NCBI GenBank assembly: GCA_017437785.1
Contig: JAFRXH010000046.1
Coordinates: 39,983-103,982 of the forward strand
Source: Lachnospiraceae bacterium
GTDB taxonomy: Bacteria; Bacillota; Clostridia; Lachnospirales; Lachnospiraceae
Direction of reading: 5' to 3'
Length of the DNA stretch: 64,000 nt
The position numbers were made by a program, and so were the translations under genes. The notes beneath the pieces were generated by a model. That model worked only from the letters and a program-made list of their open reading frames with translations, made no database searches and had not been told where the DNA came from. Shown one piece after another: positions 10,579-40,291 of this stretch; within the stretch, counting starts at the first letter, position 1; each line of letters opens with the position of its first letter.

Positions 10579-10611
10579 GGGTAGGTTGTGATAAAAAGGC
10601 AGGTAACGAAT

Positions 10612-11985
10612 ATGTTCAAAGGAAGTCTGATAGCAAAAGATAAACAATTCTATAAGGCGGTGGCTGCGATAAGCATACCTATAACCCTGCAGTCGCTCAT
10701 AACCACCGGCGTTAACATGATGGATACCATCATGATAGGTAAGATAGGCCAGACTCAGCTTTCGGCAGTCTCCCTTGCCAATCAGTTCATATCGGTATTC
10801 CAGATATTCTGCATGGGTATAGGAATGGGGGCATCTGTGCTGGTTTCCAGATATTACGGTATGCAGGATAAAAAATCCCTTAAAAACACTGTAGTGATAA
10901 TGGTAAGGCTCTGTCTTGCATTATCATCCGTATTCTGTCTGGCCACACTGCTCCTGCCTGAACAGATAATGCGTATATATACCGAAGAAGCTCCTATCAT
11001 CAAATGCGGTATCAATTACTTAGACTGGTCCGTTGTGACCTACTTCCTGCTGTCGCTCTCGCTTACCTGTACCATAATACTGCGTAACGTGGGAATGGTG
11101 CAGATCCCGCTGATAACATCGATCGCAGCTTTCTTTATCAATGTCGGGGCCAACTACATATTCATCTTCGGTAAATTCGGTGCACCCAGGATGGAGGAAG
11201 CCGGCGCGGCACTGGGTACGCTGATAGCCAGGATCTTTGAATTCTGCGTTATCTGCGGTTATCTGTTCCTTCGTGATACGCGAATAAATATACGGATCAG
11301 GGATCTGTTTGCCAAGGTCGGAAGACTATGGAATGAATATATCAGGATAAGCATCCCCGTGCTCATAAGCGACGGTATACTGGCTCTTGGAAACAACTCC
11401 GTAGCCATGGTAGTAGGACGTCTGGGTGAAAACTTCGTTGCCGCAAATGCCGTAACTACCGTAACGCAGATGCTCGCATCAGTTGTGATACAGGGCTTTT
11501 CACAGGCCGGCTGCATTATCACCGGAAAGACACTTGGTGAAGGTGATAAAGAAAAAGCCCAGGAACAGGGTTATGCTTTCCTGGGGCTGGGTCTGTTCTT
11601 TGGCTTACTGGCAGGCGGTATAGTACTGCTCATCTCACAGCCCATGATCAATGCCTATAATCTTCTGGAAGAGACCAGGCATATCGCTTCCCAGCTGATG
11701 CTCTCCATAAGCATGATAATCGTATTCCAGGCTACCAACAGCATAATGACAAAAGGCGTGCTGCGCGGCGGCGGAGATACAAAGATACTGATGCTGGCAG
11801 ACAATCTCTTCCTGTGGGTAGTATCCCTGCCTCTGGGTATACTGGCCGGTCTGGTATTCCACTTACCCGCTTTCTGGATCTACTTCTGCTTAAAGTCCGA
11901 TCAGGTATTAAAGACCATATGGTGCGTTATCAGATTAAACAGCGGTAAATGGATCAAGAAGATAAAGAGCGATAAAGAACTTTAA
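10612..11985 (+). CDS. MATE family efflux transporter
   Basis: Encodes 457 residues from the ATG at 10612 (MFKGSLIAKDKQFYK), which has AGGCAGGT upstream; an in-frame GTG at 10588 would be at the very 5' end of the transcript. It is a 12-TM MATE protein: AISIPITLQSLITTGVNMMDTIMIG in TM1, and the second half begins ISIPVLISDGILALG. It resembles the MATE subgroup common in Firmicutes and is only distantly related to the gene at 1425. The stop overlaps the convergent lipoprotein stop at 11982 by 4 bp with no terminator between. Confidence 0.92.
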   Translation: MFKGSLIAKDKQFYKAVAAISIPITLQSLITTGVNMMDTIMIGKIGQTQLSAVSLANQFISVFQIFCMGIGMGASVLVSRYYGMQDKKSLKNTVVIMVRLCLALSSVFCLATLLLPEQIMRIYTEEAPIIKCGINYLDWSVVTYFLLSLSLTCTIILRNVGMVQIPLITSIAAFFINVGANYIFIFGKFGAPRMEEAGAALGTLIARIFEFCVICGYLFLRDTRINIRIRDLFAKVGRLWNEYIRISIPVLISDGILALGNNSVAMVVGRLGENFVAANAVTTVTQMLASVVIQGFSQAGCIITGKTLGEGDKEKAQEQGYAFLGLGLFFGLLAGGIVLLISQPMINAYNLLEETRHIASQLMLSISMIIVFQATNSIMTKGVLRGGGDTKILMLADNLFLWVVSLPLGILAGLVFHLPAFWIYFCLKSDQVLKTIWCVIRLNSGKWIKKIKSDKEL

Positions 11986-13040
11986 GGCATATCTTCGGAA
12001 AGTGTATAAGCATCATCATATACCGGATCTATCACATTGTTTTTAACCATGTTACGCATGGCATCGTAACGCTCGCCTTCCCTCCAGCCCTGATCGACCG
12101 AGCCGTAACCGCTCGTGATCACTTTACAGTCGGGATACAGCTGTTTAAGCTCATCTATCTCTTCCTGTGGTATCGATGTGTAATACACCCAAAGCTTCTT
12201 AAGCTGCGGCAGATCCCTTATCCCGTCTATACTCTTTACAGGATTATGACAGATATTAAGATCCTCCAGCTCTTTTAAGTCCTTCAGTGCGCTTACATCC
12301 TCTATGCTGTTTGCGAACAATTCAAGATAACGCAGCTTCTTACAATAGCTTATCGGCGTGATATCCTTAAGCCTTACTCCGCTGCCGGCATATGAAAAAT
12401 TATCTACCAGTATAAGTATCTTAAGCTCCGGCATGTACTTAAGAAAACTAAGATCCGAGATATAATTATGCCCAAGGTCCAACGCCACCATATCCGTACA
12501 GTAACGCAGATACTGTGCCTCATCGTTATCTATCCTGGGATCGGCTTCACTCGCACGCAGTGTCGAAAAACCTACCGTATCAGTAGGTATCGTCCACTTT
12601 TTGATCTTCAGATCCCATATGATACGTATACCGGGATGGGTATCCTGAAGATCTGCATAGTCTGCATTGCCCAGGCCGTTATCCTTCATCCTGACCTGTT
12701 TCAGATCAGTCAAAGAATCAAAAAACGCTCCCACATCAAGACCGCTTAAGTCAATCCCGGACAGATCAAGCGTCTTTACATCGCTCAGCACACACAGATC
12801 CCCCAGATACACTTCATGCGGCGGGATATCGGTAGGGGTGGCAGTCGGGATACTGATATATCCTGTAACGCCTTTATCTTCCGATACACCGTCTTTATTT
12901 ACTTCATCGGCAGAAACTGCTTGCATAGCGCTCTGCGCCGCTTCGGAAGGATCTTTCGCAGGCGCAGCTGTATCATTGCGCGTACACGCGCACAGTGCAG
13001 CGGTCATAACGATCAAATATATCAAATGTTTAAGCTTCAT
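11982..13040 (-). CDS. leucine-rich repeat lipoprotein
   Basis: A 352-residue protein with a type II signal peptide (LIVMTAALCAC, lipid cysteine at about residue 19), a low-complexity linker, then leucine-rich repeats at about 90-300 (LDLSGIDLSGLDVGAF, LDLGHNYISDLSFLKYMPEL, LELFANSIEDVSALKDLKEL, LNICHNPVKSIDGIRDLPQL). Such proteins are displayed on the cell surface and usually bind proteins or glycans. The ATG overlaps the upstream acyltransferase stop by 11 bp, so it is the last gene of the radical SAM operon, which suggests, but does not prove, a surface role for the pathway product. Confidence 0.88.
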   Translation of the reverse strand: MKLKHLIYLIVMTAALCACTRNDTAAPAKDPSEAAQSAMQAVSADEVNKDGVSEDKGVTGYISIPTATPTDIPPHEVYLGDLCVLSDVKTLDLSGIDLSGLDVGAFFDSLTDLKQVRMKDNGLGNADYADLQDTHPGIRIIWDLKIKKWTIPTDTVGFSTLRASEADPRIDNDEAQYLRYCTDMVALDLGHNYISDLSFLKYMPELKILILVDNFSYAGSGVRLKDITPISYCKKLRYLELFANSIEDVSALKDLKELEDLNICHNPVKSIDGIRDLPQLKKLWVYYTSIPQEEIDELKQLYPDCKVITSGYGSVDQGWREGERYDAMRNMVKNNVIDPVYDDAYTLSEDMP

Positions 13041-14076
13041 CTTTAAATACCCTGTATTCGGGGAACGAATACTTATACTCCAATACAGATTTAAAAGCCA
13101 TAGCCAGAAAGTTTATCACTGGATTTGAATGGTGCGCATAAAAATAACGTTTTTCCAGCAGCGCACCGAATTTAAGCTTGGTCTTTTCGGAAGTCTGTCC
13201 AAAGTCTATCTGTTTACACCCGTGCTCTATGGCATAAGCGACGATATTGTATAGCATAAACCAGTACAGATCGGCATTGCATTCAGAGTCTTTATACTCC
13301 ATACCGCAGAGCATGAATACCAGTTCATCACCGTTCACCTTAAGCAGTACAAATCCCAGAGGCTTGTCATCTCTTAAAAATACGATCTTTTCACCTTCTG
13401 TTTTATCGAAGAATCCCTTCGAAAGGCATTCAAGCTTATACTCCGATCTTTCATAAGTCTGCAGATACAAAGGATGTACATCGATACTGTCATCACTTAT
13501 CCTTCGCATGCTGATATCACTGCAGTTTTTGACAGCAAGATTGATACGCCGTCTGTAAGGGCTTCTTAATGCACGCATGTATGCACAAACAGTATCCATA
13601 TCATCTCTGAACTTCAGCCTGCAGGTCGGAAGAGTTTCCCCGAACACCATTCCCTTCATGCGAAACGGCATGTCTGCATTAAGCACCAGCTTACAGCCCT
13701 TTATAGTCTTTATGTATTCCAGCATCCACTCAGGATCGTTTGTTATATATCCGCTGCAGCTCAGTGAACAAGGAAAAGCGATAGTCTGCAGATTGATAAA
13801 CAGCCTCGCCTTTCCGAAAGTAAACAGATTCATCCTGTTAAGATACGACGTGAAGAACGCATATCTGTCATCGTCCTCTATATAATAGTAACTCTGCTTT
13901 AACGGATTGGCATATCTTAAGAGTTTAAGCATCCCGGCGTTAAAAGGAAATGCCGCATCCATATCATCCGTAAATACTTCCGCGGCAAACCGGCTTTTTT
14001 TTATGTATTCATATATCTGTCCGGGATCATCGGTATGGTATTGGATTAATCTCTTATCATTCTTCATACAGATCAC
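13030..14076 (-). CDS. FemAB/BioF2-like GNAT-fold acyltransferase
   Basis: A 348-residue protein. The C-terminal half carries the GNAT_6/FemAB-type pattern: LGFVLLKVNGDELVFMLCG strands, a helix with YNIVAYAIEHGCKQIDFGQT, then EKTKLKFGA. Known members transfer acyl or aminoacyl groups to sugars, peptidoglycan stems or lipid-linked glycans. The GTG at 14076 overlaps the upstream TGA as GTGA, the typical coupled start; an ATG three codons later (14067) is the alternative, and neither has a strong ribosome site. It sits directly after five radical SAM genes and before the LRR lipoprotein. The substrate is unknown. Confidence 0.8.
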   Translation of the reverse strand: MICMKNDKRLIQYHTDDPGQIYEYIKKSRFAAEVFTDDMDAAFPFNAGMLKLLRYANPLKQSYYYIEDDDRYAFFTSYLNRMNLFTFGKARLFINLQTIAFPCSLSCSGYITNDPEWMLEYIKTIKGCKLVLNADMPFRMKGMVFGETLPTCRLKFRDDMDTVCAYMRALRSPYRRRINLAVKNCSDISMRRISDDSIDVHPLYLQTYERSEYKLECLSKGFFDKTEGEKIVFLRDDKPLGFVLLKVNGDELVFMLCGMEYKDSECNADLYWFMLYNIVAYAIEHGCKQIDFGQTSEKTKLKFGALLEKRYFYAHHSNPVINFLAMAFKSVLEYKYSFPEYRVFKDEA

Positions 14077-15434
14077 AGTACTATGGCTCTTCGTAATTTG
14101 ATAAGCAGTACTTTAAGTATGTAGAGCACTCCCTTCGCATATTCATTATCCGCATACAAAGATGATCTGCGGTTCTTCCATCCAAGCTTTAAGGACAGTT
14201 TATAGTACTCGATCGTAAAGCGCCATACACTCATATGATCGGGTTTTAACAGACAGTGAAACAGATCCTGCTTCGTCACATCCTTAGTGATCATATCCTT
14301 TTCATATTCCCTGTATATCGCAGTTCCCTGCATAGGCGTAAATATCGATACCGTCGGGATTATATCCCTTGCCGCTATCCATTTATACAGATCCTTAAAA
14401 TCCTGCTTTGTCATCTTCTGGTGAACGATAAAGAGCCCTGCGCAATAGATCCTGTTTTCCGAAAGTATACGGATACATTCCTCGTTTTCCGAAAGAGTGG
14501 TGTGTTTATTATATGAGTCAAGCTCATCATCCTTATTTGCTTCAAGCCCCACCATAACAAGAGCGAGTCCCACTTCTGCCAGTTCCTTTATCAGCTCTTC
14601 GTTATGTGCGATAAAATCGGCTCTCCCGTATATCAGATATTTCTTATGAACGCCGCGTTCTTTAAGCAGGCGTATAAACTCCCTAAGATACCTTGCATCA
14701 GTAAGGAAATTATCATCCGTGATATGTACCGCCGGAACATCAAGCGATGCTATCTCGTCAACAAGACTCTGTGCGCTGCGGCAGGAGTATTTGCCGCTGT
14801 TTCTGTTGGTGCAGAAACAGAAATTGCAGTTCCCCGGACAGCTGAAAGAATTCTTAACCAATGCCAGCGGTTTAAAACAGAGATATCTGAACCTGTTCTT
14901 ATTCCTGTAAAAATACGATCTGTCGGGAATGGGCAGATCCTCCGGACTCTCTATAACCTTGGGCGTTACCTTCCATTCACCGTCTTCTCTGTAACATATA
15001 CCTTTTATATCTTTTAATTCCGGCGCTCCTTCTTTGCCGTCGATATGATCGATGAGTCTTAACATGTTTTCCAGGCCGCTTAAGTGATATAAGAAATCTG
15101 CCTTCGAATCAAAATAATTAGCGTAATTGATCTCTACATTGGATCCGCCCAGTATGATCTTTATGGCCGGATCGTATTTTTTGATGATATCGCAATACCT
15201 TATCATCAGCTTCTGTTGTGTGATATAACCTGTAATGCATACTGCATCCGGCTTTTCCCGTTTAAGTTTTTTCTTAAGCGGCATCAGATCGTATCTTCTG
15301 TCGTATATCACCGCTTCATGCCCATGAGAAGTAAAAAGTGTATAAAGATATTCCATCTCAAGAGCTTCATGCTCTACAAGATAGGTAAAACTGAATATGC
15401 CGACCGTCTCGGGTTTTATCAGCAGTATCTTCAT
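14073..15434 (-). CDS. B12-binding-type radical SAM protein, array member 1 (3'-most)
   Basis: A 453-residue protein. The N-terminal about 150 residues are a Rossmann-like cobalamin-binding-type domain (MKILLIKPE..., IKIILGGSNVEINY); no DxHxxG motif is present, as in many class B radical SAM methylases. The radical SAM domain has CPGNCNFC at about 198 (CxxxCxxC for the 4Fe-4S cluster), with an extra Cys two residues later (FCFC). Further shared blocks: ITDDNFL, YGRADFIAHN, VGLEANKDDELDSYNKHT, TPMQGTAIYREY and LKPDHMS. The start overlaps the upstream stop as ATGA. The family includes methyltransferases and ring-forming enzymes; the substrate is unknown. Confidence 0.88.
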   Translation of the reverse strand: MKILLIKPETVGIFSFTYLVEHEALEMEYLYTLFTSHGHEAVIYDRRYDLMPLKKKLKREKPDAVCITGYITQQKLMIRYCDIIKKYDPAIKIILGGSNVEINYANYFDSKADFLYHLSGLENMLRLIDHIDGKEGAPELKDIKGICYREDGEWKVTPKVIESPEDLPIPDRSYFYRNKNRFRYLCFKPLALVKNSFSCPGNCNFCFCTNRNSGKYSCRSAQSLVDEIASLDVPAVHITDDNFLTDARYLREFIRLLKERGVHKKYLIYGRADFIAHNEELIKELAEVGLALVMVGLEANKDDELDSYNKHTTLSENEECIRILSENRIYCAGLFIVHQKMTKQDFKDLYKWIAARDIIPTVSIFTPMQGTAIYREYEKDMITKDVTKQDLFHCLLKPDHMSVWRFTIEYYKLSLKLGWKNRRSSLYADNEYAKGVLYILKVLLIKLRRAIVL

Positions 15435-16744
15435 CGGTTCTTATATTTCCTGTTAAACATACCCGTCAGCCCCGCCCAGTAGATACGCGGATAATTCACA
15501 TAATAGAGGAAACGGAATTCCATCTCGAACAGCCACATAGGCAGCTTCGAAGGCCTCATCAGGACATGGGTACCGTCGGTTCTTCTGTATTTATAACGAT
15601 ACAGTCTGTCCTTATTCTCCTCGTATACGGCAGTTCCTTTGAAGGGTATCAGTATACTGAACAATACCCAGATAAGCCCCTCTCTCTTTATGAAGCGGTT
15701 TATCTTCATGAAGTCTTCATGAGCGAAATCATAATTAATGACAAAAAGTCCCACGCAGAGCATCCTGTATCTGCGCAGTATGGATATCGCTTTTTTGTTG
15801 AGTTCAACACTGGAATGCTTATTATATTTATCGAGAGTACTGTCTTCAACAGCCTCCAGTCCCACAAGGAAATCCCTGAAACCCGCCTTGTATATGAGCG
15901 GCATTATATCTTCACACCTTACTATACTGTCCGCTCTGGAGAATACCATAAAGGTTTTCTTGCAGCCGGCTTTTAGGAGTCTTTTGCAGATCTCCTTAAC
16001 GCGTTCACGGTTTAAAAGGAAATCATCATCTATGATAAAGATCTTATCATTATCAAGCTTTATTATCTCATCCACCACATCATCGATGGGGCGCTCTTTA
16101 TACGTACAGGAATTGAACTGTCTGGATATGCAGAATTTGCACTGCTGCGGGCAGGAAAAGCTCGTCTTAAGCACCGAAAAGCAGCCCTTGGCTATAACGC
16201 GGTATTTGCTTTTGTTTTTGAAAAACTGTGTACGATCGGGCCTGATACCGTAATTGCTTATGGGAGTACCCTTTTCATTTATAACCCACTTACCTTTATA
16301 CTTAAATGCAAAACCCGTACATTCCTTTAAAGTCTCTGCATCAAATTCGTTTCTTACAGCCTTACGGAAAGAATCGAGACCGTTATCGTAGCTGACATAA
16401 TCTATCTCATCCAGGCAAAAATCCTTATAATTGATATTGACTTCGGGTCCGCCTACGATCACTTTTATCCATGGTCTGGCTTTTTTTAACTTATGTATCA
16501 GTTCAATTATATACCACGCCATATTGGACATCACCGTAAAGCCGACTATTGTGACCCCGTTTTTGTCTACTTTGTTTAACAGCTGCTTAAAGCGCATAAA
16601 GGGGCTCACGATACTCTCATCAAAGATAAAAGCCCTGTGTTTTTCTGCTTTGACGCAAGCCACCAGATATTCAAGTCCCAGCGGTTCAAGGCTTGCCACA
16701 CGTTTATCATAATGTACACGGACGAACATATATCTGTTTTTCAA
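15431..16744 (-). CDS. B12-binding-type radical SAM protein, array member 2
   Basis: Encodes 437 residues. The best start is the TTG at 16744 (KNRYMFVRVHYDKRV), which has AAGGAG 7 nt upstream and gives a length matching its paralogs; in-frame ATGs further upstream run through an intergenic repeat and lack ribosome sites. The N-terminal domain has LEPLGLEYL and VGGPEVNINYKDFC; the cluster motif is CPQQCKFC at about 197, without the extra downstream Cys of members 1, 4 and 5. Closest to member 4 (shared YDNGLDSFRK, SRADSI, KAGFRDFLVGLEA, PFKGTAVYEENKDR, DGTHVLMRPS). A recent internal duplication is likely. Confidence 0.86.
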   Translation of the reverse strand: MKNRYMFVRVHYDKRVASLEPLGLEYLVACVKAEKHRAFIFDESIVSPFMRFKQLLNKVDKNGVTIVGFTVMSNMAWYIIELIHKLKKARPWIKVIVGGPEVNINYKDFCLDEIDYVSYDNGLDSFRKAVRNEFDAETLKECTGFAFKYKGKWVINEKGTPISNYGIRPDRTQFFKNKSKYRVIAKGCFSVLKTSFSCPQQCKFCISRQFNSCTYKERPIDDVVDEIIKLDNDKIFIIDDDFLLNRERVKEICKRLLKAGCKKTFMVFSRADSIVRCEDIMPLIYKAGFRDFLVGLEAVEDSTLDKYNKHSSVELNKKAISILRRYRMLCVGLFVINYDFAHEDFMKINRFIKREGLIWVLFSILIPFKGTAVYEENKDRLYRYKYRRTDGTHVLMRPSKLPMWLFEMEFRFLYYVNYPRIYWAGLTGMFNRKYKNR

Positions 16745-16801
16745 TTTGTTTCTCCTTATCGCCGGGATCCTTCTTCTTTGCTTTGACATACACGCTAAAT
16801 A

Positions 16802-16831
16802 TATCATTCCGCGGAGTGCAGCAGCTAAGGA
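16802..16831. repeat. intergenic repeat copy B
   Basis: This stretch begins TATCATTCC and continues GGAG-G-AGC-C-AAG. It matches copy A (20877-20910) at about 22 of 30 positions, in the same orientation. It lies in the 90-bp gap between array members 3 and 2, the only sizeable gap inside the array. Degenerate members of the TCATTC-GAGCG-AGCGA type are widespread intergenic sequences in bacteria. Confidence 0.5.
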
Positions 16832-16834
16832 CAG

Positions 16835-18154
16835 TTAAATGATATTAGGTACTATGCCATGTTTTATATGATACCTGTAGAAAAGATTAACCCCAAGATA
16901 AAATATCGCATTAACCGGTCTTTTAAGAAAGCCCGTGCTGAATATGGTACGCTTAAGTATAGAACGGTATGAGTACACTTTATTGTACAGATCCCAGTAT
17001 GCCTTCGTCAGTTCCTCCGGTGTCATATTCTTCGGATAATGCACGGCTTCACAGGAATTATAGGAATACATATCGGTATTATAGATGCGGTCCTGCTGCT
17101 TCATCTCCTCATAATACTGTGTGCCCGGTATAGGCGTTAGAATATAGAAACGCGGGACCACTATCTTGTTATCTTCAATAAACTTAGCCGTATCCCTTAT
17201 GGATTCAAGGGTATCTCCCTCTGCACCCACCACCATCTCGGTCGAAATATCGATCCCGTGTTTACGTATGATGGCAAGCTGTTTACTGTATTCGTCGGGA
17301 TGCGCCCAGCCTTTCTGCATTCCGAGCAGGCTTTCACGGCTGATGCTCTCAAGTCCGAAGCTCATTACATAACAGCCGCTCTGCGCCACTGCGGTAAGCA
17401 GTTCTTCATCCTTTGCTATATCCACGGAGCACTGTGTCATCCAGTGCATCTTAAGCTTCTTTATCTCCCTGCACAGCTCAAGCGAATAATCCCTGTTTGA
17501 AAAAAGATTATCGTCCAATAAAAGGAACTGTTTAAATCCCAGTTCTTTTACCCTTTTAATATCCCTTATAACATCAGGGATACTGCGTTTTAGATACTGC
17601 CCTTTATACAGACAGTATATCGAACAGAAGCTGCAGGTCTTTGTGCAGCCGCGCCCCGCCTGCACGGGAAGGAAATTGCCTATCTTTTTATTGAGTATCA
17701 GCTCGTACCTTGGAAGAGGCGTTTCAAGTTTTGTGAGTTTCTTTTTGTAGAAATCCTTCATGGTGCCGTTAAGATAATCATTTATCATCTCGCCCCAGGT
17801 TTCTTCCGAATCACCTATCATTACGCTGTCGCAGTATTTCTTTGCTTCTTCCGGCATCAGCGATACCATATAGCCGCCAAGGATCACCGTCTTTCCCTGT
17901 TCCTTAAATTTCTTTGCTATATCTATCGTGCGCATAACGGCATGCCCCATGCTGCTTATTCCTATAAGCTCCGCATCGGTATCAAAATCAACATCCTCTA
18001 TGGTCTCGTAACAGATCTCCACTTCAAAATCAGGCGGTGTAAGTGCTGCCAGAAGCGGCAGTGCAAGCCCCACAAAATAGAGTCTTTTTTTCTTTACCAG
18101 CTTGCCGTACTGATCATAAGGCGTGGGCTGTATCAGCAGTATCTTTTTCTTCAT
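16835..18154 (-). CDS. B12-binding-type radical SAM protein, array member 3 (BchE-like)
   Basis: A 439-residue protein and the odd one out in the array. The N-terminal domain is the canonical form: LYFVGLALPLLAAL, LGGYMVSLMPEEA and GDSEETWGE, the acidic motif common in BchE/P-methylase-type proteins. The cluster motif is CTKTCSFC at about 171, inside VQAGRGCTKTCSFCSIYC. It then has FLLLDDNLFSNRDY, SFGLESISRESLLGMQKG, VVGAEGDTLESIRDT and TPIPGTQYYEEM. Three bases separate it from the upstream gene. Relatives include methylases, oxidative cyclases and tetraether/diabolic lipid C-C coupling enzymes; which applies is not decidable here. Confidence 0.88.
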   Translation of the reverse strand: MKKKILLIQPTPYDQYGKLVKKKRLYFVGLALPLLAALTPPDFEVEICYETIEDVDFDTDAELIGISSMGHAVMRTIDIAKKFKEQGKTVILGGYMVSLMPEEAKKYCDSVMIGDSEETWGEMINDYLNGTMKDFYKKKLTKLETPLPRYELILNKKIGNFLPVQAGRGCTKTCSFCSIYCLYKGQYLKRSIPDVIRDIKRVKELGFKQFLLLDDNLFSNRDYSLELCREIKKLKMHWMTQCSVDIAKDEELLTAVAQSGCYVMSFGLESISRESLLGMQKGWAHPDEYSKQLAIIRKHGIDISTEMVVGAEGDTLESIRDTAKFIEDNKIVVPRFYILTPIPGTQYYEEMKQQDRIYNTDMYSYNSCEAVHYPKNMTPEELTKAYWDLYNKVYSYRSILKRTIFSTGFLKRPVNAIFYLGVNLFYRYHIKHGIVPNII

Positions 18155-18157
18155 GCG

Positions 18158-19489
18158 TCAGAACCAGCCCTTCTTTTTAGTATCATACGCGGTGCCCAGC
18201 ATCGCTCTTACGATTATCTTCGGATAAGTAACGGCATGCAGCCAGTAATAGCGCAGCATGAATTCGACCGACGACATATTGGTAGGCTTAAGTGTAAGAT
18301 GCGTACCGTCCAGTCTCCATGATTTAAAATGTATCAGCTTATCCTTATACTCATCATATGCATCCGTGCCTTTATACGGCGTAAAAATACCAAACACTAC
18401 CCATAAGAGATTGTTCCCCTTGACAAACTGAAGAAGCTTTCTAAAATCATCCCTCGTGGCCGTATAGTTTATAACAAACAATCCGTTGCATACCAGTCCT
18501 GCATCACGCAGGTTTTTTATCGCCATTATATTTTCATTTCTTGAGGTCTGTTTATTGTACTCATCCAGAGTCTCATCGGATATAGCTTCCAGTCCCACCA
18601 TGATATCGCGGAATCCGGCCTTGTACGCAAGCGGCAGTATATCGGGATTGGCTGCAAGAAAATCCGCCCTTGCATACGCCATGAACTGTTTCTTCAATCC
18701 GCGCCTCAATACTTCATTGCAGAACGCCCGCACTCTTTCCTTATCAAAAAAGAAAGTATCGTCAACAAACCATATCTTGTCGTGTTTAAGCTCCTCTATC
18801 TCATCCACCACTTCCATCAGATCGCGTTCCGTATACTCGCCGCTGTTCATCTTGGTACAATAGCAGAAGGTACAGTTATAAGGGCAGGAAAAAGAGGCTT
18901 TGCTCAGAGCAAACTTTCCCTTCATAAAGATATAGTTATTCTTAAGTCCTTTATAAAAAGCAGTCCTGTCGGGCTTGGTGATAAAGCCGCAGACAGGCGC
19001 TCCCTTTTCTTTTATGATCCACTTTCCGTTTTCTTTATAGCATATGCCGCTCAGATCACGGAGTTTATCGCTCGTATAGCCCTCGCTCCACATCTTCTTA
19101 AGTGTCATAAGCCCGTTATCGTAATAAACGATATCGATATCATCGGTACAGAATTCCTTATAATTAAGCTCCGCCTCGGGGCCTCCTACCATGATGGTGA
19201 TGTTTGGAAATCTCTGCTTAAGCTGGCGCGCACGTTTGATTATGATATCAACCGTATTTGCATTTGCATTAAAACCGATAAAGTCAAACTTTCCGTGCTC
19301 TATGCGCCGCACCAGGCGATAAAGACGCATAGCCCAGGGATACTGGAATTCATCATGTATCCTGCAATTGATCTTAAGCTCCTTTGCAAGTCCCGCAAGA
19401 TACTCAAGTCCTAGCGGTTCCAGATTTGCCACTAAAGATGTGTACTTGGGTCTTATCAGTAATACTCTTGGTTTTTTACGTCCCATCAT
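18158..19489 (-). CDS. B12-binding-type radical SAM protein, array member 4
   Basis: Encodes 443 residues. Two adjacent ATGs (19489 and 19486) follow GGAGG; the first overlaps the upstream stop as ATGA, the second has the better 6-nt spacing. The N-terminal domain has LEPLGLEYLAGLAKEL and VGGPEAELNYKEFC; the cluster motif is CPYNCTFC at about 200, followed by YC, an additional Cys two residues on. The downstream blocks are those of the paralog group (FVDDTFFFDKERV, YARADFLAANP, VGLEAISDETLDEYNKQT, TPYKGTDAYDEY, LKPTNMS). It is closest to member 2. The substrate is unknown. Confidence 0.88.
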   Translation of the reverse strand: MMGRKKPRVLLIRPKYTSLVANLEPLGLEYLAGLAKELKINCRIHDEFQYPWAMRLYRLVRRIEHGKFDFIGFNANANTVDIIIKRARQLKQRFPNITIMVGGPEAELNYKEFCTDDIDIVYYDNGLMTLKKMWSEGYTSDKLRDLSGICYKENGKWIIKEKGAPVCGFITKPDRTAFYKGLKNNYIFMKGKFALSKASFSCPYNCTFCYCTKMNSGEYTERDLMEVVDEIEELKHDKIWFVDDTFFFDKERVRAFCNEVLRRGLKKQFMAYARADFLAANPDILPLAYKAGFRDIMVGLEAISDETLDEYNKQTSRNENIMAIKNLRDAGLVCNGLFVINYTATRDDFRKLLQFVKGNNLLWVVFGIFTPYKGTDAYDEYKDKLIHFKSWRLDGTHLTLKPTNMSSVEFMLRYYWLHAVTYPKIIVRAMLGTAYDTKKKGWF

Positions 19490-20847
19490 CTGCCTCCGAT
19501 CAGCTTTTTAAAATACTGCAGATTAACTTTGAACGCGCCCACGCTTAATTTAAGCGTATCATGCAGACCGTATTTTTTTATCATATACCATGCGCTCACG
19601 GGATTTACCGTAACCTTGTAGTAAAGCAGTATGGTATACCAGTAATACATCCTTACAGATATATTATCCGGCTTGACCACCAGGTGCGCCAGATCCCATT
19701 TCTCGTATTCGTCTTCCCTTACTATAAAACGCGGCCTGTACTTTTCGTATATGTCCGTGCCGCGGAGCGGAGTCAGCGGCTGGAGATTTACAAATATAAG
19801 TCCCAGCTTTTTGATCCAGCGGTAGAGCGCATCGAAATCTTTCTTTGTCCAGTCAAGTCCCAGTATGAAAGTCCCGTAACACTCCACATCGTATTTTTTA
19901 AGTATAGCTGCGGCCTTTTCGTTTATAGCCACATTGGTACGTTTGTTGTAATCATCCAGCTGCCTGCTGTCGCAGGATTCAAGCCCCACTATCACGGCCC
20001 GCAGCCCCACCTGCTTAAAGCGCTTTATCACGTCTTCATTTGCTGCTATAAAATCAGCCCTGCCGTAAATAAGATACTTTTTGTGAATGTGGTTTTCTTC
20101 CAGCATATCGCAGAACTTAAGTATGCGGTCGCGTCCCACAAGGAAATCATCATCAACTATATATATCTCTGATTCCTTTATCTGCTTAAGCTCGCAGATT
20201 ATATCCTCAAGCGTTCTGGCAAAATACTGATCGTCCGTTATCTGCCTGCAGAAACAGAACTTGCAGTTATACGGACAGCCGAAGGAAGTTTTTATCAGGC
20301 TGCAGTTACGGTGGAACATGTAGTAATACTTCGCCCTGTATCTTTTAACTTTGTTCCTGTCGGGATAGAGATATTTAAATGTGGTATCCTTTTTGGGCGG
20401 CTTGCTACCCGAATGATAGACACACTCCGGCTCGCTGTTTTCCTTTCCTTCAAGCTTGTTAAGTATCTCAATGAAAGTGCGGATACCGTTAGCGCGGATT
20501 ATATAATCTATATACTTTGATTCAAAATCTCCGGGATTGACCTCCGCATGCACGCCGCCGACTATGGTCACTATCTTTTTATCAACGGCCTTTGCCTGCC
20601 TTGCGTAATCCTTTATTATATTTACGTGTGAAATATAGCCTGTGATGCCCACGACATCAGGCTTAAGACGTTCTACAAACCATGAAACGCTGTGGCGCTC
20701 CAGTATCATATCGACAATGATACACTTATGTCCCAGCGCCTCGATATTTGAAGATATATACTCAAGCTCGAGAGGCTCGCATATCATCACGTTCTGCAGG
20801 CCTATCGTTTCCTTATGTGGTTTTGGACGGAAGAGAAGTACTTTCAT
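19486..20847 (-). CDS. B12-binding-type radical SAM protein, array member 5 (5'-most)
   Basis: Encodes 453 residues from the ATG at 20847 (MKVLLFRPKPHKET), which has GGGTGA 7 nt upstream; in-frame codons further up only translate an intergenic repeat. The N-terminal domain has CEPLELEYI and VGGVHAEVNPGDF. The cluster motif is CPYNCKFC at about 188 with FC following. IVDDDFLVGRDRI, YGRADFIAANEDVI, VGLESCDSRQLDDYNKRT, TPLRGTDIYEKY and VKPDNIS place it with members 1, 2 and 4. The stop overlaps member 4's start. It is the first radical SAM gene after the acetyltransferase at 20911. Confidence 0.88.
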   Translation of the reverse strand: MKVLLFRPKPHKETIGLQNVMICEPLELEYISSNIEALGHKCIIVDMILERHSVSWFVERLKPDVVGITGYISHVNIIKDYARQAKAVDKKIVTIVGGVHAEVNPGDFESKYIDYIIRANGIRTFIEILNKLEGKENSEPECVYHSGSKPPKKDTTFKYLYPDRNKVKRYRAKYYYMFHRNCSLIKTSFGCPYNCKFCFCRQITDDQYFARTLEDIICELKQIKESEIYIVDDDFLVGRDRILKFCDMLEENHIHKKYLIYGRADFIAANEDVIKRFKQVGLRAVIVGLESCDSRQLDDYNKRTNVAINEKAAAILKKYDVECYGTFILGLDWTKKDFDALYRWIKKLGLIFVNLQPLTPLRGTDIYEKYRPRFIVREDEYEKWDLAHLVVKPDNISVRMYYWYTILLYYKVTVNPVSAWYMIKKYGLHDTLKLSVGAFKVNLQYFKKLIGGR

Positions 20848-20876
20848 ATAAATTTCACCCGGGACGACGCCCCCTA

Positions 20877-20910
20877 TATCATTCCAGGGAGCGTAGCGAC
20901 GAAGCATCTT
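20877..20910. repeat. intergenic repeat copy A
   Basis: TATCATTCC followed by AGGGAGCGTAGCGACGAAGC fills the 63-bp gap between the acetyltransferase and array member 5. It belongs to the same degenerate family as copy B (16802) and, in opposite orientation, the segment near 50586-50612 (TTCGCTTCGCTCAGGATGA). Confidence 0.55.
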
Positions 20911-21996
20911 TTATAACTCTTTCTCAAATACTACATACTTCTTATACAATGAATCGCAGGCAGCGCGGCAGAAACTGTTGGAATCGTCATTATCCTCCAG
21001 CACCCATGACGTTTCTATACGTGTATATCCCTGCTCTCTGATAAGGTTAAACGCCTTATATATAAGGGCTGCGGGAAGTCCCCGTCCGCGGTAGCCCTTA
21101 AGTACGCCATATTCCATGACCTTCGCAGTTCTTATCTTTCTGCCCGATATCAGATTCTTAAAAAAATGCTTAGTCCCGAATATGCTACCGCGTGCGGCCA
21201 GTTCATTAAAATCCGGATACCACATGATAAAGCCTACCGGTTCTTCATCCTTAAATGCAAAGATCAGGGAATCCTCCTTCATAAAAAGGAACAGCTCTTT
21301 AAGCATTTCCTTATCATCCTCATAATCCCTGCAGTAATAATACTTATGGCTGCTGAAACAGTAATTGTTCAGATCCGTATATATCTTTGAATAAGTATCA
21401 AATTGCTTTTTATCAAAGTAACGGAATTCATAGTTCTTATCTATGCGCTCAATGGCACGTCTGAATCTTTCCAGTCTGTCATCATAATGCTCTACAACAT
21501 ATGAATTAAGGCCTGTTTCTTCAAAGCCGGCTTTTCTGAAATGATCATTGTAAAACATGGGATTTCCAGGGGACGAAAAGGAATTGCGTTCTTCAAAATG
21601 AGAATCCAGAAGTCCCAGACCGTAGTTAACATGGCCGTTGAGACCAACGACCATTCTTTTGCAGTTAAGGCGTCTGCCATACTCTTTCGTAAGATCCGTA
21701 AGCATGTCTATCGCCTTATCCTGATGTGGAAGACTTTCAAAAAAGCATAACTGGATATATTCCGGCAGCTGCGGCGCATACACTATAATACCCTCGCAGA
21801 GGATATTGCCGCTGTCGGAAGAAACATAAACGGGATAATACTTAATATTTTTCGTGAAGTGCAGTTTATCTGAAAAGATCTCGCAGATCATGAAATAGTT
21901 ATCATCTATATAGCGTCTGCATCCGCTGTACAGATCCCTTCTGAAACGCAGAAACTCCCTCCGTTCTTTTGCCGTTTTTGCTACAGTAAGCTTCAT
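20911..21996 (-). CDS. GNAT-type N-acetyltransferase family protein (two-domain)
   Basis: A 361-residue protein of a large uncharacterised family. The N-terminal half starts FLRFRRDLYSGCRRYIDD and contains FFESLPHQDKAIDML; the middle has a segment with NPMFYNDHFRKAGFEE; the C-terminal GNAT half ends YRGRGLPAALIYKAF (the acetyl-CoA-binding R/Q-x-x-G-x-G/A loop) and IETSWVLEDNDDS. The family is often found beside B12/radical SAM genes and glycan or lipid pathways, but no reaction is established to my knowledge. It is the first gene of the array operon, only 28 nt from its promoter. The ribosome site is weak (GGGGATGGGG). Confidence 0.8.
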   Translation of the reverse strand: MKLTVAKTAKERREFLRFRRDLYSGCRRYIDDNYFMICEIFSDKLHFTKNIKYYPVYVSSDSGNILCEGIIVYAPQLPEYIQLCFFESLPHQDKAIDMLTDLTKEYGRRLNCKRMVVGLNGHVNYGLGLLDSHFEERNSFSSPGNPMFYNDHFRKAGFEETGLNSYVVEHYDDRLERFRRAIERIDKNYEFRYFDKKQFDTYSKIYTDLNNYCFSSHKYYYCRDYEDDKEMLKELFLFMKEDSLIFAFKDEEPVGFIMWYPDFNELAARGSIFGTKHFFKNLISGRKIRTAKVMEYGVLKGYRGRGLPAALIYKAFNLIREQGYTRIETSWVLEDNDDSNSFCRAACDSLYKKYVVFEKEL

Positions 21997-22052: not shown

Positions 22053-22078
22053 GTCAGCAGCCCATTTGGGCTGCTGAC
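22041..22078 (-). terminator. rho-independent terminator of pta
   Basis: An 11-bp perfect stem (GTCAGCAGCCC / GGGCTGCTGAC) with a 4-nt loop is followed on the minus strand by TTGTTTTTTGGG. It lies 31 bp after the pta stop. Confidence 0.88.
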
Positions 22079-22109: not shown

Positions 22110-23093
22110 TCAGGTAAGAGCTGCGGTGATGATAGCCATGGAATATACTTCCAGGGCATTGCAGCCGCGTGAAAGGTCGTTTACCTGGGCATTAAGTCCC
22201 AAAAGTATGGGGCCGTACGCTTCGAAATTACCCATGCGCTGTGCTATCTTATAGCCCAGATTACCGGCGTTGATATCGGGGAAGATAAAGGTATTGGCAT
22301 AGCCGGCAACTTCGCTTCCCGGCGCTTTCTGCCTTGCCACCCTCGGTGATACGGCTGTATCAAACTGGAATTCGCCGTCGATAGGCACATCGGGAAATTC
22401 CTCCTGAGCCTTGAGCGCCGCATTTCTCATCTTGTCAACAGAATCGCCTTTACCTGAACCTCTGGTGGAATAGCTTAAAAATGCCACCTTGGGATCGATA
22501 CCGAAAATACGCGCGCACTTGATGGTCTCACCGCATATCTCTACCAGCTCATCCTCGGAAGGCTGGATATTTATGGCGCAGTCTGCCATAGCAAGCACCT
22601 CATTTTCACCGGTAGCACCGGGGCGTACCAGTATGAAGCATGATGAAACGATCGAATTACCCGGCTTGGTCTTTATGATCTGAAGCGCAGGCCTTACCGT
22701 ATCTGCCGTGGAATAAGTAGCCCCGCCAAGAAGGCAGTCTGCTATACCCATCTTTACCAGCATGGTACCAAAGTAGTTACGCTGCAGCATCATCTTCTGT
22801 GCCTTCTCCATCGTAACGCCTTTTTCCTTACGTATCTCATAGAACTCCCTGGTCACTTCCTCAAGGCGCTCGTAGTTGACGGGATTGATTATCGTTGCCC
22901 CACGGATATTGTATCCGGCTTCTTCTGCGGCATTGGCAACTTCCTTTTCGTCGCCAAGCAAGATCGGAGTAAGGAAATTACTGGCCAGCAGACGTGATGC
23001 CGCTTCCAGTACACGGGGATCCTCGCCTTCGGTAAGTACTATGGTCTTTGGATTCTCCTTAAGTTTCTGGATCATTGCGCCAAATCCGAACAT
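22110..23093 (-). CDS. pta: phosphate acetyltransferase
   Basis: A 327-residue enzyme of normal short Pta length, converting acetyl-CoA plus phosphate to acetyl phosphate and CoA in cytosolic fermentative acetate formation. The N-terminus (TIVLTEGEDPRVLEAASRL), GGATYSTADTVRPALQII and the C-terminal LGYKIAQRMGNFEAYGPILLGL are typical; the Ser/Arg active-site region (FLSYSTRGSGKGDSVDKM) is intact. CAGGAGG precedes the ATG. Acetate kinase is not adjacent. It ends at the strong hairpin that also carries the promoter of the next operon. Confidence 0.96.
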   Translation of the reverse strand: MFGFGAMIQKLKENPKTIVLTEGEDPRVLEAASRLLASNFLTPILLGDEKEVANAAEEAGYNIRGATIINPVNYERLEEVTREFYEIRKEKGVTMEKAQKMMLQRNYFGTMLVKMGIADCLLGGATYSTADTVRPALQIIKTKPGNSIVSSCFILVRPGATGENEVLAMADCAINIQPSEDELVEICGETIKCARIFGIDPKVAFLSYSTRGSGKGDSVDKMRNAALKAQEEFPDVPIDGEFQFDTAVSPRVARQKAPGSEVAGYANTFIFPDINAGNLGYKIAQRMGNFEAYGPILLGLNAQVNDLSRGCNALEVYSMAIITAALT

Positions 23094-39471: not shown

Positions 39472-39479
39472 GCATATTT

Positions 39480-39556
39480 TGCCAGGGGAGCTGTTGCTGA
39501 GACGGAGCGATCCGGACCCTCAGAACCTGAAACGGGTAATACCGGCGTAGGGAGGC
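39480..39556 (+). promoter_or_regulatory. TPP (THI-box) riboswitch
   Basis: The aptamer core is unmistakable: GGGGAGC, then CTGAGA (39497-39502), ACCCTCAGAACCTGA, CGGGTAATACCGGCGTAGGGA. P1 pairs TGCC (39480-39483) with GGCA (39553-39556). A downstream stretch (CCCCCTGC) can pair with GCAGG, and AAGGAGG is at 39581-39587, so control of translation initiation is likely (inference). It represses thiT when thiamine pyrophosphate is high. Confidence 0.95.
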
Positions 39557-39595
39557 AGGCTTTATCCCCCTGCGAAAAAAAAGGAGGATTTTTTT

Positions 39596-40291
39596 ATGTC
39601 AGAATTAATCGAGTATGTTGCTGAAGATGGTGCTTACTCCCTTACAGACAAGGGTAAGATCGCCGTAATGTTTCTTCTGGTCATCGCGCTCATCATCGCA
39701 GTCGTGGGCGTGATATCTGCCGTGAGGAGAAAAGGCGGCAGTGAAAAGCGTGCGCTTAATACAAAGCAGCTGGTATTTTCCGCCGTAGCTCTGGCCCTCG
39801 CCTTCCCCTTATCTTACATCGAACTGCTTAAGTTCCCCTGGGGAGGCAGCATCACCTTATGCTCCATGTTCTTCGTGACCATCATAGGTTACTGGTACGG
39901 CCCCGTAGCCGGTTTTTCCGCAGCTTTTGCATACAGCCTGCTGCAGTTCATACAGGGCGGCGGCAGCTATATGCTTTCTCTGCCCCAGGTAATGTTTGAC
40001 TATCTGCTGGCTTTTACCGCCCTGGGTGCATCCGGATTCTTTAAAGGAAAGAAGCACGGCATGATCGCAGGCTATCTGCTGGCAGTGTTCCTGCGCGGCC
40101 TGTTCCACACCATAGGCGGTTACCTCTACTGGATGGATTACATGCCCGAAGAATTCCCCCAAAACCTTGCCGTTATCTACCCCATCGTATACAATTACGC
40201 ATACATACTGGGTGAAGCGCTGCTGACGGTCATCATACTGCTGCTGCCGCCGGTACAGAAAGCACTTGCCAGAATAGAAAAAGAAAACTGA
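39596..40291 (+). CDS. thiT: ECF thiamine transporter S-component ThiT
   Basis: A 231-residue membrane protein, longer than the usual about 190 residues because of an added N-terminal TM helix (about 20-43). LAFPLSYIELLKFPWGGSIT, MFFVTIIGYWYGP and the helix with YSLLQFIQGG are typical of ThiT; the FPWGGSI loop and the Tyr/Trp residues form the thiamine pocket. It binds thiamine and works with the shared EcfAA'T module, not present here. The TPP riboswitch upstream confirms the assignment. Confidence 0.95.
   Translation: MSELIEYVAEDGAYSLTDKGKIAVMFLLVIALIIAVVGVISAVRRKGGSEKRALNTKQLVFSAVALALAFPLSYIELLKFPWGGSITLCSMFFVTIIGYWYGPVAGFSAAFAYSLLQFIQGGGSYMLSLPQVMFDYLLAFTALGASGFFKGKKHGMIAGYLLAVFLRGLFHTIGGYLYWMDYMPEEFPQNLAVIYPIVYNYAYILGEALLTVIILLLPPVQKALARIEKEN

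Follow-up and report, generated by a model that had tools for sequence, protein, structure and literature searches.

What might a bacterium make with five radical S-adenosylmethionine (SAM) proteins and two acyltransferase-like proteins encoded side by side? The question is raised by a stretch of 64,000 nucleotides (here called the window) from a Lachnospiraceae bacterium (assembly GCA_017437785.1, contig JAFRXH010000046.1, positions 39,983 to 103,982), in which eight tightly packed, co-directional open reading frames (ORFs) occupy positions 11982-21996 of the minus strand. We find that this operon belongs to a real, old and apparently undescribed family, which is carried by anaerobic clostridia, many of them from the ruminant gut, and that its conserved core consists of four genes, encoding a GNAT protein, a FemAB-like protein and the radical-SAM proteins RS1 and RS3. 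We give roughly even odds (about 50%) to the operon being one version of a conserved anaerobic pathway to an acylated, lipid-like product with a radical-tailored carbon skeleton. Every enzyme comes from a known superfamily and it is the combination that appears to be new; among the papers listed by literature searches, none, judged by title or the start of the abstract, describes the operon.

A first-pass annotation had described eight co-directional genes, five of them for radical-SAM proteins with B12-binding-type N-terminal domains, and this description holds. All eight ORFs are present, all five RS proteins exceed the Pfam cut-off for the radical-SAM domain (PF04055) and four of the five exceed that for the N-terminal B12-binding domain (PF02310), RS3 reaching 31.7 against 32.1 bits. 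In order from the first gene of the operon, with counts referring to the 41 named loci described below, they are:

20911-21996, minus strand: GNAT protein, 361 amino acids (aa), core gene (PF00583, 39.8 bits)
19486-20847, minus strand: RS1, B12-type radical-SAM protein, core gene (best named model HpnR, 166.8 bits against a cut-off of 650)
18158-19489, minus strand: RS2, B12-type radical-SAM protein, accessory (33 of 41 named loci; 42% identity to RS4)
16835-18154, minus strand: RS3, radical-SAM protein, core gene and the most conserved (55-93% identity, 15 aligned relatives)
15431-16744, minus strand: RS4, B12-type radical-SAM protein, accessory (26 of 41 named loci, never without RS2)
14073-15434, minus strand: RS5, B12-type radical-SAM protein, accessory (20 of 41 named loci)
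13030-14076, minus strand: FemAB-like (Acetyltransf_6-like) protein, 348 aa, GTG start, core gene (PF13480, 21.9 against 22 bits)
11982-13040, minus strand: leucine-rich repeat (LRR) lipoprotein-like protein, in the operon here and outside the conserved system

With these starts the junctions comprise four overlaps (4, 4, 4 and 11 bp), one 3-bp gap and two gaps of 63 and 90 bp, both of which would be smaller with starts at the ATGs further upstream (20907 and 16807).

A four-gene core conserved across clostridial families

Close relatives were collected by a pattern scan with RS1 of one genome per species for 84,980 species, resulting in 41 confirmed loci (the named loci, L006-L046; L004 and L035 are one contig, of which only L035 counts among the 41, while both are rows of the tree below). 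RS1 is present in 41/41 by construction, loci were labeled by best-hit tblastn and genes missing from contig-cut loci were counted as lacking. Thirty-four titles say Lachnospiraceae, two name Butyrivibrio and at least ten mention organs of the ruminant gut. GNAT was found in 37 loci, the FemAB-like gene in 35 and RS3 in 34; the full four-gene core is present in 28/41, and 11 of the other 13 loci are contig-cut. A common gene order is ligase, carrier protein, GNAT, FemAB-like, RS1, RS2, RS4, RS5 and RS3, the first two being accessory genes described in the next section.

The same four genes are kept together at greater distance. Among 391 genomes of the class Clostridia, the FemAB-like profile matches 13 (own genome included) and the RS3 profile 31 (matches listed at E 1e-60). 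RS3 orthologs, defined when full length by 545 bits or more and including contig-cut copies in G531 (558 bits) and G653 (290 bits over 184 positions), fall in exactly the 13 FemAB-like-positive genomes; the other 18 hold only paralogs of at most 289 bits. All 12 class-level neighborhoods fetched contain the four core genes. In a draw across the phylum, the FemAB-like profile matched 9/398 genomes (own included, one weak), and seven of the eight neighborhoods fetched hold the core, the weak eighth (L097) holding nothing. The resulting 19 distant loci (12 class level and 7 phylum level) were chosen by the FemAB-like gene, which is present there by construction. The first-pass annotation had proposed a multi-step system and named the co-occurrence of at least three radical-SAM members with both acyltransferases as its support, and this pattern is found in 17/19 distant core loci, which carry 3-5 radical-SAM genes; the remaining two (L070 and L072) carry two, with broken genes counted once.

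Membership beyond the core varies. In L042 and L072 no member beyond the four-gene core was found, nor in the contig-cut L070, while L075 and L078 encode all five RS orthologs along with both transferases, divided between two facing strands, and have neither ligase nor carrier. The eight-gene system first proposed is retained as a core of four genes only, RS5 being found in 20 named loci and absent from L006 and L008, both close relatives. Within the family to which the window belongs, 4/299 genomes have a FemAB-like match, two strong and two weak, and the sampled congener G004 has none, indicating a patchy trait. The family of L075 and L078 looks cellulosome-bearing, with dockerin- and GH5-like neighbors by eye. 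In the draft genomes of L031, L044, L070 and L080, some of the system's radical-SAM genes are broken into at least two ORFs, which may reflect assembly error or decay.

The five radical-SAM genes are not recent copies of one another, as the first-pass annotation had allowed. A quick tree (midpoint root, long-branch warnings) places them in separate clades that cross families, namely RS3 (46 rows, support 100), RS4 (29 rows, support 100), RS5 (23 rows, support 100), RS2 (38 rows, support 99) and RS1 (50 rows, support 92), which argues for old, specialized enzymes. Compared with L006 and L008, the ratio of nonsynonymous to synonymous change (pN/pS) is 0.06-0.23 for the RS genes, 0.06-0.09 for RS1 and RS3, and 0.20-0.29 for the two transferases, all of these ratios being rough because synonymous sites are near saturation. 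The transferases appear to evolve faster than the RS enzymes, as if the acyl group or its acceptor varied more than the radical chemistry.

Could the operon be a chance cluster, or a recent amplification, with no common function? Radical-SAM genes are numerous (18 PF04055 matches above cut-off in the window's genome, five of them in the operon), and gene order and accessory genes differ between loci. However, the FemAB-like and RS3 markers mark the same 13/391 genomes, the paralog clades are old and pN/pS is low. Since the genes are kept together in other families and pN/pS is low, we place the operon above chance; the tree, the co-occurrence and the locus census contradict both the chance and the recent-paralog explanations, which are left with hardly any probability. 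The related suggestion that single members routinely occur in unrelated contexts mostly fails as well, as no RS3 ortholog lacks a FemAB-like partner in the 391 genomes; its exceptions, L009 and L046, are taken up below.

Accessory genes and exchangeable modules

Around this core, RS2, RS4 and RS5 are accessory, and elsewhere an RS5-like protein and a class I SAM methyltransferase stand instead of RS4/RS5. Across 60 loci (41 named, 12 class level and 7 phylum level), RS4 occurs in 28, each time with RS2, and the methyltransferase occurs together with the RS5-like variant in 21/21 cases and with RS4 or RS5 in 0/21. Because the RS5-like variants paired with the methyltransferase do not form one supported clade, this module is a positional label. 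The accessory methyltransferase of L032 scores 81.7 bits against the BioC model TIGR02072, below its cut-off of 184.95.

An AMP ligase (PF00501) and an acyl carrier protein (PF00550), families assigned from one example each, were found in 27/41 and 28/41 named loci, and the serine of an LxSF motif is kept by all 24 carrier proteins listed (two from one contig, L004 and L035). The close relative L008 carries both genes between RS3 and RS4 and also has the LRR gene; L006 has none of the three. The window contains neither gene, and its genome has three general carrier-protein matches. In three phylum-level loci a phosphatidylserine (PS)-decarboxylase-family gene and a FeeM-family gene were found together:

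L092, 4404-5692: PS-decarboxylase-family and FeeM-family genes (Pfam)
L094, 15317-16551: PS-decarboxylase-family and FeeM-family genes (Pfam)
L095, 3487-4721: PS-decarboxylase-family and FeeM-family genes (by ORF starts)

In all three the two genes stand between RS3 and the RS5-like gene and run in the direction of the core; in L092 and L094 they adjoin each other inside the operon, with PF21926 (FeeM-type) at 48 and 43 bits and PF02666 (PS-decarboxylase) at 158 and 155 bits, over cut-off; a Gly-Ser site is visible by eye in both PS-decarboxylase-family proteins. The earlier statement that the operon matches no recognized pathway type therefore stands for the window and gives way for its relatives, which add acyl ligase, carrier, FeeM-type and PS-decarboxylase-family proteins.

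The LRR lipoprotein was considered as a part of the system and rejected: it is found in 1/41 named loci (L008) and 0/19 distant loci, a rarity that leaves the proposed display of the product at the cell surface unsupported. Two further gene groups were observed. L032 (14116-16210), L039 (7305-9399) and L041 (2460-4594) hold an ABC-type ATPase, a HypB/CobW-like GTPase and a PF04060 Fe-S protein among their radical-SAM genes (families read from L032 only), a trio that could possibly serve ATP-driven reductive activation. In L013, L015, L016, L018 and L019, the ligase gene is immediately preceded by tandem genes of ~520-730 aa in which a TIR-like stretch was seen by eye.

Radical-SAM proteins and transferases

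The CxxxCxxC motif is present in each of RS1-RS5 and in 206/206 tree rows of at least 400 aa, relatives included. No named radical-SAM NCBIfam model reached its cut-off among the models listed (for RS3, 25 of 33). The RS1 match to HpnR (TIGR04367) is near full length (residues 20-402), RS2, RS4 and RS5 reach 120-124 bits against the same cut-off of 650, and BchE (TIGR02026) scores 115-121 bits for RS1, RS2, RS4 and RS5 (best RS4, 120.6; cut-off 481.35). The best model for RS3 is PhpK (91.9 against 600 bits). The RS proteins may depend on B12 and may catalyze methylation or cyclization, and the window's genome encodes CobS. A role in defense was also considered, and no specific match was found: the PADLOC candidate model PDC-M51A matches four RS proteins at 22-39 bits, which we took as general radical-SAM similarity, and PADLOC gave no match for RS2 or the GNAT, FemAB-like or LRR proteins.

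For the transferases, AlphaFold models (mean predicted local distance difference test score, pLDDT, 86.5 for GNAT and 89.1 for the FemAB-like protein) suggest two GNAT-like domains in the GNAT protein and tandem GNAT folds in both, as read by eye from the order of secondary structure. The GNAT protein was aligned in 19 rows, the window's included (A1), and the FemAB-like protein in a second alignment (A2); by sequence, no solved structure matched the FemAB-like profile and eight matched the GNAT profile weakly (best 0.028). Neither window protein matches FeeM (PF21926) at E 0.1, and the PEP-CTERM/exosortase FemAB model TIGR03019 gives the FemAB-like protein 13 bits against a cut-off of 260.35.

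A proposed pathway and its alternatives

Acyl or lipid chemistry is suggested by the pair of ligase and carrier, by the resemblance of RS1 to HpnR over nearly its full length, by the pairing of PS-decarboxylase- and FeeM-family proteins and by the tandem-GNAT models. In the pathway that we propose, an acyl chain would be activated by the dedicated AMP ligase onto the dedicated acyl carrier protein in many Lachnospiraceae, and by a general ligase and carrier in the window's genome. RS1 and RS3 would then alter unactivated carbons of the chain or the acceptor, probably through C-methylation or C-C bond formation, and the two acyltransferase-like proteins would join the acyl group to an amine or hydroxyl partner. 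Further skeletal changes, differing between species, may be made by RS2, RS4 and RS5, or by the RS5-like protein and the methyltransferase. More tentatively, and with somewhat more doubt than belief, we suggest an unrecognized lipid or lipoamide pathway of anaerobes in which two GNAT-fold acyltransferases would work with two obligatory B12-type radical-SAM enzymes to build a scaffold whose carbon skeleton interchangeable radical-SAM modules rewrite in each species, on a dedicated carrier in many rumen Lachnospiraceae.

Several observations weigh against an acylated, lipid-like product of such a pathway. No ligase ortholog was found in the window's genome (best match 31% over part of the protein), and the distant loci are without the dedicated pair: ligase and carrier were found in 0/12 class-level loci, and the seven phylum-level loci yielded no carrier and, for the ligase, only matches of 23-24% in L094 and L095. 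Both genes are likewise missing from L006, L009, L034, L042 and L044, five named loci whose flanks are open, and L009 and L046 carry RS1 and RS3 without a FemAB-like gene. The link to PS-decarboxylase- and FeeM-family proteins comes from three loci in two families, and the decarboxylases of L092 and L094 fall under every NCBIfam PS-decarboxylase cut-off (best equivalog 158 against 225 bits). All named radical-SAM models listed, HpnR and BchE included, score far under their cut-offs, and no cobalamin riboswitch was found in the window or in the 7 of 41 named loci scanned. The near-saturation of synonymous sites belongs here too. Lastly, the closest solved structure to RS1 and RS3 is AprD4, an enzyme that acts on sugars and is not known to use cobalamin, and this makes both a lipid substrate and B12 use insecure.

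This last observation also favors a different product, a water-soluble derivative of an amino sugar or amino acid made by AprD4-type radical dehydration or epimerization and then N-acylated, and GNATs commonly acylate small amines. However, the AprD4 diol-dehydratase model NF033070 reaches at most 58.9 bits (RS3) against a cut-off of 500, the eight window genes include no match to sugar-modifying families or glycosyltransferases, and the carrier, FeeM-type and PS-decarboxylase-family proteins of relatives point to acyl or lipid chemistry; we consider such a product unlikely, with slightly better odds than chain coupling (below), the other main rival. A peptide substrate, ribosomally synthesized and post-translationally modified (RiPP) or of the nonribosomal peptide synthetase (NRPS) type, would be in keeping with the peptide modifications that B12 radical-SAM enzymes carry out in known systems, with weak matches of RS2, RS4 and RS5 to the RiPP model TIGR03975 (34.7-44.9 bits) and with NRPS-like neighbors, seen by eye, in L081. 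The scores do not approach that model's cut-off of 281.85, the window's gene gaps (-11 to 90 bp) are too small for a separate precursor gene and no conserved small ORF was noticed, without a systematic search, all of which makes a peptide quite improbable.

The radical-SAM enzymes might instead couple or cyclize hydrocarbon chains. The products would then be membrane-spanning dicarboxylic lipids of the diabolic-acid type, or ladderane-like ones, and not methylated acyl amides. The carriers include rumen Lachnospiraceae, Butyrivibrio among them, and Butyrivibrio is reported to form diabolic acid in a way that fits radical coupling (PMC9385802, PMC11767167), which keeps this explanation alive; anammox ladderane clusters also pair radical-SAM proteins with a SAM methyltransferase and carrier proteins (PMC2649909, PMC9821293). 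On the other hand, a bacterial coupling enzyme, Mss, has already been named (PMC11868695), and the ladderane-type lipid radical-SAM model TIGR04072 reaches at most 76.9 bits (RS3) against a cut-off of 360. A search covering the eight window genes, not their relatives, found no ketosynthase, and chain coupling would leave the two acyltransferase-like proteins unexplained, so that we judge it rather unlikely.

If the scaffold pathway suggested more tentatively above is real, it would be, to our knowledge, the lipid pathway richest in radical enzymes, and an oxygen-free route to multiply C-methylated or cyclized acyl products. Few kinds of enzyme alter unactivated carbons. Those of the cobalamin radical-SAM type do, and a single one can define a compound class; two to five radical-SAM enzymes in fixed company across several clostridial families constitute a testable orphan pathway. 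The FemAB-like and RS3 genes can serve as markers for lipid and metabolite hunting, and two carriers whose records have no metagenome-assembled or uncultured titles, G41 (L015) and AB2028 (L029), may serve as starting material.

Operon boundaries and neighboring genes

One further feature lies just ahead of the first gene and is likely the operon boundary:

22053-22078, minus strand: terminator-like hairpin, 11-bp stem and T-rich tail, 3' of the upstream gene (consensus scan, not proof of function)

Terminator-like sites overall are not above shuffled sequences in number (10 versus a mean of 8.1), this single hairpin being the striking one, and a promoter scan found sites no more common than in shuffles (29 versus a mean of 26.1). 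The gene upstream of the operon (22110-23093) is by eye a phosphotransacetylase, and its relatives also flank the operon in L006, L007 and L008. On the other side, a MATE-type transporter gene (by eye, 10588-11985), considered as a candidate exporter, is convergent with the operon and shares 4 bp with the last operon gene; its relatives adjoin L006 and L008 at 86-96% identity, but identity falls to 22-25% for the MATE genes that directly precede L021 and L025. Elsewhere in the window, a thiamine pyrophosphate (TPP) riboswitch (39474-39570, plus strand) lies just upstream of an ORF at 39596-40291.

Comparison with known systems

The nearest enzymes by model are those of the HpnR/BchE/HpnJ/PhpK group, which share their domain order with RS1, RS2, RS4 and RS5, these four also having a near full-length HpnR match. 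They differ in that scores are far under the cut-offs and that five paralogs here share one operon and are tied to two acyltransferase-like proteins. At the level of gene clusters, the FeeM/exosortase-associated N-acyl amino acid clusters combine a GNAT-type synthase, a carrier protein, an AMP ligase and a FemAB protein. The operon family likewise brings together ligase, carrier, GNAT-fold transferases and a FemAB-like protein, with FeeM-family proteins in the L092 and L094 operons, whereas its core GNAT and FemAB-like proteins have no FeeM match and radical-SAM enzymes are central. In the GH3-type clusters of other clostridia (L102, L104 and L105), 2-4 RS3-like proteins stand beside a GH3-family acyl-activating enzyme (PF03321); however, these are only 32-35% identical to RS3, have other partners and come from genomes without a FemAB-like match, and two further L102 neighbors that were scanned gave no Pfam match. 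Anammox ladderane clusters share the carrier protein, SAM methyltransferase and B12/radical-SAM proteins (PMC2649909, PMC9821293) but are fatty-acid-synthase clusters with several FabB/FabF copies (PMC2649909), of which there are none among the window genes. Based on these sequence comparisons, the operon matches no single family tested and shares parts with both the N-acyl amino acid and the ladderane clusters.

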